Made by a program: the position numbers and the translations under genes. The notes beneath the pieces were generated by a model. It did not search any database. It had not been told where the DNA came from and saw nothing but the letters and a program-made list of their open reading frames with translations. Shown here in pieces: positions 26,683-34,029 of a DNA stretch of 34,493 nt; position 1 is the stretch's first letter, and each line of letters starts with the position of its first letter. Origin of the DNA: a virus. The stretch lies in IMG/VR virus record IMGVR_UViG_3300029319_000212, positions 1 through 34,493 of that record; one strand, 5' to 3'.

Positions 26683-26885
26683 TTGTTGTCAGTGTTGCCA
26701 GTGTGGACAGTAACCGTTTGGCTAGTCTTTGTTGCGCTAAGTTACTGTAATTATTGGTAGCAGAGGGGAGACTTGAACTCCCGACCTTGCGATTATGAAT
26801 CGTAAATCCACAGAGCCGCTAGCCCGCTGACTGTCTAGCTTTGACCGACTGACAACAAGTTGTGTTGCCAATGGATTGACAACAC
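26683..26885. other. attP: attP region with core and five arm-type repeats
   Basis: A tRNA-like core (26755 to about 26804) lies just downstream of the integrase gene. It is flanked by five 9-bp sites of consensus [TG]TGTTG[TC]CA: 26683-26691 and 26692-26700 on the left; 26850-26858 (reverse), 26862-26870 and 26877-26885 (reverse) on the right. The outer sites include a perfect 11-bp inverted repeat (26683-26693 with 26848-26858). Core plus distal repeated sites is the architecture of lambda-type attP, where integrase binds arm sites with its N-terminal domain. No host boundary is in the window, so the crossover point is inferred. Confidence 0.8.
26755..26828 (-). tRNA. tRNA-Met(CAU)-like sequence, 3' half intact (attP core)
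   Basis: Read leftward it has an anticodon stem-loop with CAU (complement at 26795-26797) in a TTCATAA loop. It also has a perfect T-stem (GGGAG 26766-26770 with CTCCC 26778-26782) around TTCAAGT, a 3' acceptor strand CTCTGCT, discriminator A and an encoded CCA. The 5' half is poor: a possible acceptor strand AGCGGGC pairs only with two G-U and one mismatch, and no D-stem forms. It is therefore probably a piece of the host tRNA gene used for integration, not a working phage tRNA. Confidence 0.55.
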
Positions 26886-28982: not shown

Positions 28983-29040
28983 CCTCACCGGCCCGCCGAC
29001 GCCGCATCAGCGCCCACCTGTTGAAAGTCGGCCACACACT

Positions 29041-29145: not shown

Positions 29146-29307
29146 ATGACCCGCGTTGAATACCTGTTTGATTTAGAAGTGCAAAGCACAAAGTCCCGCC
29201 TACTTAGACCCGTCAAGCCTTACCAACTACGACGCCTTTACTGGTGGGTCCGCCTGAAGTACCTGACGGTCAAGTGGTGGTGGCGTAACCGCAGGAGGGC
29301 GGTGTGA
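29146..29307 (+). CDS. Hypothetical basic early protein (53 aa)
   Basis: 53 aa with GGAG at 29134-29137 and ATG nine bases later. The composition is striking: many Arg/Lys and six Trp (YWW and KWWW clusters), so it is strongly cationic and amphipathic. It lacks a signal peptide. Its stop overlaps a GTG start (GTGTGA), which couples it to the next zinc-binding gene. Function is not recognised; nucleic-acid or membrane contact is possible from composition. Confidence 0.62.
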   Translation: MTRVEYLFDLEVQSTKSRLLRPVKPYQLRRLYWWVRLKYLTVKWWWRNRRRAV

Positions 29308-29639
29308 CCGAAGAACAGGTCGAAGAGTCACGGCTGCGGGCTCAGTTTCGCTTCCAAGCGTTTTTAGATGAGACGGCAAGGCTGGAGCGACAGAACAAGT
29401 ATTGGGACAACCAGGCGCGTTACGCACTAAAGCGCATCTGTTTTCTGTACGAGTGCAGTGATTGCGGCAAGCTAGTAGGCGCGAAGCACGCGCTAAACTG
29501 TCCAGACCGTGACTTGACACCCGTGATGCCGTCAGAACTGTCACTGAGTGAGCGCCTGCAGCGTCGCGAAGATATATTCAACGATTGGAACTGGGATTAC
29601 GACGCCAACGTTGCCAAACTTGCGGAGTTGCTGACTTGA
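29304..29639 (+). CDS. Early protein with a small zinc-binding cysteine motif
   Basis: 111 aa, GTG start overlapping the previous stop. The N-terminus (1-50) is a charged helix. Around residues 52-72 the motif C-x5-C-x2-C with a following H-x4-C (CFLYECSDCGK...HALNC) resembles a zinc ribbon. The C-terminal part is acidic with several Asp/Asn. The family is not recognised. The stop overlaps the next TTG start (TTGA), so three small genes here are translationally linked. Confidence 0.65.
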   Translation: MTEEQVEESRLRAQFRFQAFLDETARLERQNKYWDNQARYALKRICFLYECSDCGKLVGAKHALNCPDRDLTPVMPSELSLSERLQRREDIFNDWNWDYDANVAKLAELLT

Positions 29640-29887
29640 AGCGCCTGAGTGAGCGTTTGAGTGAGCGGCTGGCACAGCGTGACATGTCACGATTGGCGCT
29701 GGAACCCGCCAGACCAGCCGCTACGCAGCCTACTGGCAAAAACTTGGACATAAGCGTGACATGTCACGATTCAAAACTGCGCTATTGCCCTGGTTGCGAT
29801 AACTACAAAACGCCGAAACCACCACTTTGGGTATTTGGTAGCAAGGTCTGTCGTTTCTGTCAGCGAATGAGCCGCCTTGGCCGGTGA
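29636..29887 (+). CDS. Zinc-finger-like early protein carrying two palindromic DNA elements
   Basis: 83 aa from a TTG at 29636 overlapping the previous stop (TTGA); this choice gives the same coupling seen elsewhere. The N-terminus repeats RLSERLSERLAQR, a basic amphipathic helix. The C-terminus contains YCPGCDNYKTPK and VCRFCQR, a four-cysteine zinc ribbon (C-x2-C...C-x2-C) common in small phage proteins. The DNA holds two copies of a 19-bp palindromic element in different reading frames. The end overlaps the next gene by 11 bases. Confidence 0.68.
   Translation: MKRLSERLSERLAQRDMSRLALEPARPAATQPTGKNLDISVTCHDSKLRYCPGCDNYKTPKPPLWVFGSKVCRFCQRMSRLGR
29676..29771. repeat. Pair of identical 19-bp palindromic elements
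   Basis: AGCGTGACATGTCACGATT occurs at 29676-29694 and 29753-29771, with a perfect 14-bp palindrome CGTGACATGTCACG at its heart (29678-29691 and 29755-29768). The copies are 77 bp apart and lie in different codon phases: the first reads R-D-M-S-R, the second V-T-C-H-D. Conservation is therefore of DNA, not protein. It looks like a binding site for a dimeric protein. Confidence 0.85.
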
Positions 29888-30731
29888 AAAGAATCGAACT
29901 TGCTTCCCAAAGCCCTGCGTCTGGTGTGGGAAGGAGTTTACACCACGGGAAGCCAAGATAAGGCATTGCAGTCGCAAATGTGGCTATCTTAACGTAAGCC
30001 GCGAACAGCGAGCTAGGAAGATGAAACGCTGCGTTCAGTGCGAGCGGATGTTCTATAACAGGAACAGCAACGCTAAGTATTGCAACCAGGACTGCTATTA
30101 CGAAGCCGCAAGGTCTAGGCGCGTCAAGAACTACATGGGCTGGACAGCACAGCAAGTCCAGTGTCCGCACTGTACAGCGTTTTTCACGCAGCGCAGTGTC
30201 AACCATAAATACTGTACGCGGAGCTGCTACAAAGCCATGAAGCGGCACCAGACGTACATCCGTCTGAAGGCCACCAGCCGCACCGAGTGCAAGCACTGCT
30301 TGCAACCGCTGAAGGAACTCGGCCGCGTCTTCTGCAGTAAGAAATGTAGTGACAAGCATAAGTACATCGCCCACCAGATTTATCAAATAAAGTGCGCGAT
30401 TTGTGGGACTGAGTTCAAGACCAAGAAGAAGCACAGACTGCACTGCAGTAAAAGCTGCAGTAACAAGGCGACGAACCGCAAGAAGGCCGATGAAGCCGCC
30501 ATGCGGCAAGAAGCGTATCACAAGCGTGAGGGGCGCTTGCGTGAGACGATGGAAAGGCGGGTCAAGCACAGTAAGATGATGCCACTGGAAACCGCTCATG
30601 CTGATGCGATCAAGGCATTCCTACAGCGTGGTGGCACCATAAAGCAGTTTCAGCCACAGGATGCAGAGCAGGCGAATACCGCTGTACCCGAAAACTTTTG
30701 GTCCTTCGACCAGTACGACCTAGAAATTTAA
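29877..30731 (+). CDS. Protein with five tandem zinc-finger modules
   Basis: 284 aa from TTG 29877, the only start that keeps the first module. Five consecutive modules of pattern C-x2-C-x(10-14)-[HYF]C-x3-C: CVWC...HCSRKC (about 14-35), CVQC...YCNQDC (52-73), CPHC...YCTRSC (95-117), CKHC...FCSKKC (138-158) and CAIC...HCSKSC (173-195). Each repeats a [KR]-x-C-S/T-x-x-C end, like treble-clef or FCS/MYM-type fingers found singly in phage endonucleases and regulators. The modules are spaced about 20-43 residues apart by basic linkers. The C-terminus (196-284) is a charged helix and a short domain. It probably binds DNA or RNA. Other zinc genes lie directly upstream. Confidence 0.75.
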   Translation: MAGEKNRTCFPKPCVWCGKEFTPREAKIRHCSRKCGYLNVSREQRARKMKRCVQCERMFYNRNSNAKYCNQDCYYEAARSRRVKNYMGWTAQQVQCPHCTAFFTQRSVNHKYCTRSCYKAMKRHQTYIRLKATSRTECKHCLQPLKELGRVFCSKKCSDKHKYIAHQIYQIKCAICGTEFKTKKKHRLHCSKSCSNKATNRKKADEAAMRQEAYHKREGRLRETMERRVKHSKMMPLETAHADAIKAFLQRGGTIKQFQPQDAEQANTAVPENFWSFDQYDLEI

Positions 30732-30860
30732 AGCTACCGGCTAAGGTGTTTGTGCGGTCCTCCCACTGGCGTAATCTCACCAGTCAAATCGCACTACTCA
30801 TGTGGCACTGAAGCAATACGCACGAGCATTAGTCTGTCGAGTGCAACGCTGTCGGTAGCT
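30732..30860 (+). ncRNA. Structured intergenic element (branched RNA)
   Basis: It occupies the gap between two genes. The outer helix AGCTACCG (30732-30739) pairs perfectly with CGGTAGCT (30853-30860) and starts on the base after the upstream stop codon. Inner helices: TTGTGCG 30750-30756 with CGCACGA 30819-30825 (7 bp with one G-U), enclosing ACTGG 30765-30769 with CCAGT 30780-30784; and AGC-A-TT 30825-30830 with AA-C-GCT 30845-30850 (one mismatch, shares base 30825). The next ATG (30878) lacks a clear ribosome site, so the element may control its translation. Alternatively it is a processed RNA. Confidence 0.4.
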
Positions 30861-33366: not shown

Positions 33367-33779
33367 TGTTGGAGTCAGCCACCTACGTTTTCCAAGTCCC
33401 ACCACAGACCGCGCCGCGCATGACACGCCGTGATCGCTGGAAGAAACGGCCTTGTGTTCAGCGCTACTTCGCCTATCGCGATCAGTTGCGCGCTAAAGCC
33501 GTCGAGTATGGCATCACGCTCCCGAACGCTTTCACCGTCACGTTTTACATGGCTATGCCGAAATCATGGAGCAAGAAGAAGAAAGCCGCGCATGTTGGCA
33601 AGCCGTGCCAGTCGAAACCAGACCTAGACAACGTTCTAAAGGGCTTCATGGATGCGCTGCGGACTAACGATGCTAGCGTTTACGCCGTGAGCGCTTCGAA
33701 GTTTTGGAGCGAGCAGCCTGGCGTCGTTCTAAGCGTTCGCGTGCCTTCGCCCGCTTGGCGGCCAAAGTGGGCGGTATGA
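33366..33779 (+). CDS. rusA: RusA-like Holliday junction resolvase
   Basis: 137 aa from ATG 33366, which shares one base with the previous TGA. It carries the RusA family core: a basic strand-turn, then YMAMPKSWSKKKK (61-73), KPDLDNVLKGFMDAL (84-98, catalytic D86 and D88) and NDASVYAV (101-108, third acidic position D102). It ends with a strand-rich VVLSVRVP segment. RusA resolves four-way junctions as a dimer, which helps remove branches before packaging. Its 3' end overlaps the opposite-strand XRE gene by 107 bases, so antisense interference is possible. Confidence 0.9.
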   Translation: MLESATYVFQVPPQTAPRMTRRDRWKKRPCVQRYFAYRDQLRAKAVEYGITLPNAFTVTFYMAMPKSWSKKKKAAHVGKPCQSKPDLDNVLKGFMDALRTNDASVYAVSASKFWSEQPGVVLSVRVPSPAWRPKWAV

Positions 33780-33978
33780 GCATTTCCTGCAGGATGCTGA
33801 CTGGTGCGTCGGGTGGTAGGCTGTGGATCGAATACAAGAGCGCTACCTGGTGCAGCGTGCGGTCTGCTACTTCCAGGTGCGAACACTCTTGCAGGCTGAT
33901 ATGAGTCTCTGAAACGCTCAACAGTTCCGCCAGTTCCTTTTGCGTCAACTGCATGGCTGTACGCCAGGTGCGCATCAT
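33673..33978 (-). CDS. XRE-family regulator, convergent with rusA
   Basis: 101 aa from ATG 33978 (33975 also possible). A TTG at 34029 would add 17 residues without a better ribosome site. Residues 5-45 hold a clear helix-turn-helix: LTQKELAELLSVSETHISLQE followed by a recognition-like helix. The C-terminal 40 residues are very basic (RAKARERLERRQAARSKTSKRSRRKR-type). It is the only leftward gene here besides the lysogeny genes and faces a 400-bp control region before the terminase operon. It may repress late or early transcription, or its own promoter. The tail-to-tail overlap with rusA is unusual. Confidence 0.78.
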   Translation of the reverse strand: MMRTWRTAMQLTQKELAELLSVSETHISLQECSHLEVADRTLHQVALLYSIHSLPPDAPVSILQEMLIPPTLAAKRAKARERLERRQAARSKTSKRSRRKR

Positions 33979-34029
33979 ATCGGCGCGGATTGCAGTATTT
34001 AATGCGTTTCGTGGCGGAAGACCGGTCAA

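Follow-up and report, generated by a model that had tools for sequence, protein, structure and literature searches.

A predicted five-module zinc protein in a temperate phage

The locus examined here raises the question of what a phage protein with five tandem zinc modules binds, and what it does for the phage that encodes it. The window, by which we mean the whole stretch of DNA that was analysed, comes from a virus record and is 34,493 bases long. It is probably circular because its first and last 77-78 bases match. The window is a temperate phage with the gene set expected of one, including a head-tail connector, large terminase, integrase, RusA resolvase, replication-initiation-like protein, and peptidase M15. 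Two scans of genome contigs revealed no prophage copies of the locus. The protein, which we call Zn5, is encoded as follows.

29877..30731, + strand: Zn5, an open reading frame of 284 aa with a TTG start; five predicted treble-clef-like zinc modules, basic array, acidic C-terminus
29916..30458, + strand: the five modules (aa 14-194), with 20 cysteines invariant in six orthologues
30570..30728, + strand: conserved C-terminus (aa 232-284), with a SutA-RBD-like stretch at aa 241-262 and the tail AVPxNFWxxDQYDxE

The modules lie at aa 14-35, 52-73, 96-117, 138-157, and 173-194 and follow the pattern C-x2-C-x(11-13)-C-x3-C. When the Zn5 sequence was shuffled, at least one module arose in just 9% of trials. 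The array is strongly basic, residues 1-204 having a pI of 9.9 and a net charge of about +38. We found no HNH or other recognizable nuclease in a Pfam search of the whole protein or a PHROGs search over the C-terminus. We also looked for a clear full-length match to a characterized family and found none. An AlphaFold model computed from four sequences was confident only around modules 4-5 and the helix that follows (mean pLDDT 60), so the zinc geometry is one that we infer. In a Foldseek comparison of this model, itself poor, with the PDB, most matches were to C2H2 arrays and RING domains, at TM-scores below 0.3.

Zn5 is conserved among related phages

Orthologues of Zn5 are found in five other related phages and share 48-82% identity with it. 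Three of these (L001, 82%; L002, 64%; L010, 48%) were found directly or via a neighboring gene, and L032/L033 and L034 (48%) were found by searching with the 111-aa gene described below. The five tandem modules reported by a first-pass annotation of this DNA held up, since all 20 module cysteines, and with them the four putative zinc ligands of each module, are invariant in six distinct orthologues. Compared with its nearest orthologue, that of L001, Zn5 has a dN/dS of approximately 0.10 (NG86, 0.134/1.33), a ratio that could be estimated for this one pair only, with dS saturated against the other orthologues. Thus, Zn5 is a real and conserved protein. The invariant cysteines are consistent with zinc binding by the modules.

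Corresponding modules of different phages are more alike (62% on average) than non-corresponding ones (31%), with a small margin for the most distant pair tested. By this comparison the array is old and not the product of a recent duplication. Zn5 is present at a constant place in every contig that reaches its locus; the contigs L031 and L042 end short of it. We had considered L042 as a phage without Zn5 and RNA2 (described below), but it is uninformative because the contig stops before the region. We rejected the idea of a homing endonuclease gene, which is disfavored by the constant position of Zn5; sporadic presence among relatives was not seen. All members come from related phages that share gene order, so the fixed gene order is weak evidence, and six sequences are few.

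Small genes and a repeated palindrome lie upstream of Zn5

Three features are found just ahead of or overlapping the start of Zn5.

29304..29639, + strand: 111-aa neighboring gene, used as a query for more relatives
29636..29887, + strand: 83-aa gene with two CxxC-type pairs, overlapping the start of Zn5
29679-29690 and 29756-29767, no strand assigned: two copies of the perfect palindrome GTGACATGTCAC, a possible operator

The TTG start of Zn5 is backed by the relatives. In L010 the TTG overlaps the upstream stop codon as TTGA, and L002 has a CTG at the equivalent position with GAGGAG ahead of it. The stop/start overlap between the 83-aa gene and Zn5 is also found in L001 and L010, and the two genes are likely to be translationally coupled. 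Two of three small upstream genes had been said to carry zinc-binding motifs. This is the case for the 83-aa gene, but the CSDC...C motif of the 111-aa gene is not strictly kept and is replaced by CEC in L002, L031, and L032. The repeated palindrome noted earlier is indeed present, its copies lying 77 bp apart inside the 83-aa gene and in different reading frames. The pair is common to the window, L031, L032/L033, and L034 and is absent from L001, L002, and L010.

Tandem zinc modules occur in other phage proteins

The first-pass annotation had considered five such modules in a row unusual. This holds only in part, as tandem arrays of the same module are found in other phage proteins. Gaia gp136 of a Mycobacterium phage has five modules, a protein of Sinorhizobium phage NV1.1.1 has four, and GAL1_80 of a Gordonia phage has three, and each of these three proteins has an HNH domain, which Zn5 does not. 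In DotProduct gp55 of a Mycobacterium phage, three modules follow a WhiB domain. We also observed a 502-aa protein among phage genes (L003, 5938-7446) that combines ten tandem modules with a DUF559/MTES_1575 nuclease at its C-terminus. By sequence comparison, therefore, an array of the Zn5 type is a known kind of part and not unprecedented. What sets Zn5 apart is the absence of a nuclease domain, a SutA-RBD-like motif in an acidic and strongly conserved C-terminus, and the fixed company of covarying RNAs.

The HNH endonucleases of PHROG 1271 match the Zn5 array with an E value of 4.6e-16. They share with Zn5 three to five C-x2-C ... C-x3-C modules and basic linkers but end in a clear HNH domain (PF01844), whereas Zn5 has a different C-terminus. 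DotProduct gp55 is comparable to Zn5, and a precedent for it, in that its modules are joined to a part from a transcription-factor family; its partner is an N-terminal WhiB domain and that of Zn5 is a C-terminal SutA-like tail. The multi-site nucleic-acid binding proposed earlier is consistent with the charge of the array and with the joining of the same modules to nucleases or WhiB elsewhere; the charged C-terminus that had been cited in its favor is acidic. Nothing found here speaks for host toxicity of Zn5.

To characterize the module itself we built a profile from 31 modules. It gave weak matches to Polyhomeotic-like 1 (E 0.011) and eL24 (E 0.017), both of which were outscored by classical C2H2 arrays through the CxxCG-x-x-F half alone. 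The last module of the L003 protein touches the zf-FCS and TRASH families. These weak contacts with the Polyhomeotic-like FCS finger, eL24, zf-FCS, and TRASH point to a treble-clef-like module. The FCS, TRASH, and eL24 treble-clef modules have the C-x2-C ... CS-x2-C pattern in common with Zn5, but there is no full structural match.

Module 5 and the helix that follows it match the N-terminal part of the Pfam NinG family in each of the four members that were scanned; the E value is 0.0093 for Zn5 of the window and 2.9e-5 for the best-scoring member. PHROG 171 (NinG/Rap) matches three of the four. The NinG/Rap protein of lambda (PF05766) resembles Zn5 in having a charged helix behind an N-terminal module.

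The C-terminus of Zn5 resembles the RNA-polymerase-binding domain of SutA

With a pI of 4.5, the last 53 residues of Zn5 are acidic, and they are also its best-conserved part (mean identity 74%, compared with 54% for the array). The stretch HADAIKAFLQRGGTIKQFQP, which lies in this tail, is similar to the domain by which SutA of Pseudomonas aeruginosa binds RNA polymerase (PF20661; PDB 7f0r, 7xl3, 7xl4). We confirmed the SutA stretch used for comparison against PDB 7f0r. The two proteins have A-hydrophobic-x-x-F-L-x-R-G-G-x-[IV]-x-x-x-x-P in common. The Pfam match of Zn5 to SutA-RBD (18 bits, E 0.0019) falls under the curated cut-off of 29.3 bits. The domain was matched in four of the four Zn5 members scanned (best E 0.0019, all below cut-off), and in four phage records Zn5 was the sole SutA-RBD match of its record (16-21 bits). 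When scored against SutA without gaps, Zn5 reached 43, a value attained by none of 20,000 shuffles of its C-terminus. One unrelated open reading frame of 1,048 scored 42, so the likeness may still be due to chance.

Changes in SutA at L67, M71, F74, L75, V81, I84, K60, R64 or G78/G79 are reported to impair binding (PMC9300723). Within the sub-cut-off match, M71, F74, L75, G78, G79, V81, and I84 are identical or similar in all six Zn5 members. Most contact residues are thus retained, but the polar contacts K60 and R64, along with L67, are lost. The proteins also differ overall, with Zn5 lacking the acidic N-terminal region of SutA and SutA lacking zinc modules. In a search of the PDB with a profile of the Zn5 C-terminus, SutA itself was absent from the matches. 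Two other matches were set aside as chance. One was LAG-3, which matched FLxRGGxIxQxQP and serves as a warning about short motifs. The other was PDB 8fje 'E8', presumably a designed repeat protein, with several short repeats that each scored below 10 bits.

Two structured RNA elements accompany Zn5

Two structured non-coding elements had been noted near Zn5 by the first-pass annotation, and both proved to be conserved. RNA1 is a hairpin far upstream of Zn5 and RNA2 is a three-way junction just downstream.

28983..29040, + strand: RNA1, conserved element just past the stop codon of a 66-aa gene; hairpin 28995-29000/29027-29032
30733..30859, + strand: RNA2, three-way junction supported by covariation
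30733-30741/30851-30859: RNA2 helix
30745-30749/30805-30809: RNA2 helix
30753-30757/30789-30793: RNA2 helix
30765-30769/30780-30784: RNA2 helix
30812-30814/30848-30850: RNA2 helix
30820-30823/30841-30844: RNA2 helix

The RNA1 hairpin is 100% paired in six phages, with double changes in three of its six pairs; L002 does not have RNA1 in this form. For RNA2, a first structure drawn from four sequences was replaced by the three-way junction, which has more compensatory pairs. Across six sequences the junction is paired in 95.7% of cells, compared with 24-48% in sliding controls, although this figure is biased towards structure, the alignment having been made with a model derived from four of those six sequences. 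Eight pairs show compensatory changes. In 500 shuffles, neither the percentage of paired cells, nor the count of compensatory cells, nor the covariation score was matched. Thus, RNA1 and RNA2 are real structured elements with compensatory base changes. Each begins right after a stop codon, both contain ACCGGC and GTCGG, and an Rfam search of the window gave no match. The internal loop of RNA2 at 30757-30763 contains a conserved UCCUC(C) that resembles the 16S anti-Shine-Dalgarno sequence.

RNA2 starts 0-2 nt past the Zn5 stop codon in five of six phages. Because of this spacing, a terminating ribosome would be expected to overlap the first helix of RNA2. The exception is L002, where RNA2 lies 396 nt after the stop with a gene in between. 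A pattern scan of IMG/VR located RNA2 in five contigs, all with Zn5; because the pattern allows no deviation in the closing helix, diverged copies would have escaped it. Closing-helix matches in L012, L014, L015, and L016 were dropped as RNA2; those in L014-L016 sit within an intact 251-aa frame of a phage tail region, and L012 has near-identical sequence. Two extra genes are located beside RNA2 in L001 (1610-2211), and a CapR-like gene (below cut-off) and a T5orf172/MUG113 gene flank it in L002 (5252-5641, 5795-6409). The RNA2 spot seems to take up genes.

Proposed function of Zn5

We favor, with a probability of about 0.4, the reading that Zn5 is an early RNA-polymerase-associated regulator of this temperate phage group with a zinc array that binds phage RNA or DNA. 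The basic array would bind a specific phage nucleic acid, most simply RNA2, perhaps RNA1, or else operator DNA. The C-terminus would use the SutA-RBD-like helix and the R-G-G-x-I after it to dock on the RNA polymerase beta protrusion. The likely outcome would be altered transcription of downstream co-directional genes, with Zn5 acting as an antiterminator or activator. A change in RNA polymerase made early could act far downstream because the replication and late genes are co-directional with Zn5. This is the reading that draws on every part of the locus. Counting against it, we saw no intrinsic terminator downstream of Zn5 on the + strand. We infer zinc binding, nucleic-acid binding, docking, and the effect on transcription from sequence, and the link between Zn5 and RNA2 is purely positional. 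If this reading is correct, phages would have in tandem zinc modules an exchangeable arm for binding nucleic acid, open to fusion either with nucleases or with RNA-polymerase-binding parts, and the docking groove of SutA would be used by a phage too. The covarying RNA1 and RNA2 are directly testable candidate partners of Zn5.

The best-placed alternative, which we regard as doubtful, is that Zn5 arose from an endonuclease with tandem modules, has lost the nuclease part, and now serves only as a DNA-binding regulator or architectural protein that makes no contact with RNA polymerase. The likeness to SutA would then be chance, and the twin palindrome might be the binding site in part of the group. 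The PHROG 1271 match favors such a descent, as does the finding that HNH endonucleases with arrays are the nearest known proteins whether sequences or models are compared. The palindrome is also kept in four phages even though its copies lie in different frames. Its absence from three Zn5-bearing phages argues against it as the site, and descent from a nuclease offers no reason for the strong conservation of the C-terminus.

A narrower form of the polymerase-associated reading is unlikely to hold in full. Here, Zn5 would recognize RNA1, RNA2 or both and use its SutA-like tail to carry a modified RNA polymerase across the replication and late genes.

In the antitermination systems lambda N/nut and HK022 put, too, a temperate phage has structured RNA elements in its early transcript, as is the case for the conserved RNA1 and RNA2. 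However, the RNA structures and protein of those systems are unrelated to RNA1, RNA2, and Zn5, and antitermination here is putative.

It is also quite unlikely that Zn5 is an RNA-binding autoregulator that, by binding RNA2, sets its own abundance, the stability of its message or how well the next gene is translated, with no action on RNA polymerase. The close spacing of RNA2 behind Zn5 and the failure of the exact-helix scan to find RNA2 apart from Zn5 would fit this, but the intervening gene in L002 does not, and neither RNA1 nor the C-terminal motif is explained by it. A NinG/Rap-type recombination accessory that binds branched DNA is very unlikely, given that the NinG match of the window's Zn5 scores 16.2 bits against a cut-off of 25.4 and covers 79 of 193 positions with the nuclease half missing, that NinG has one zinc module and not five, and that the phage already has RusA as a Holliday-junction resolvase.

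Other features of the genome

The single exception to the shared direction of Zn5 and the replication and late genes in the open reading frame map is a small HTH gene (33676-34029, - strand). This gene overlaps the end of RusA at the early/late junction and has counterparts in L001, L002, and L010. A gene with a PAPS-reductase domain (718-1440, + strand; E 3e-5, just above cut-off) lies near the terminase gene. A tRNA-Met (CAT) at 26755-26831 (- strand) adjoins the integrase and is a possible attachment site.
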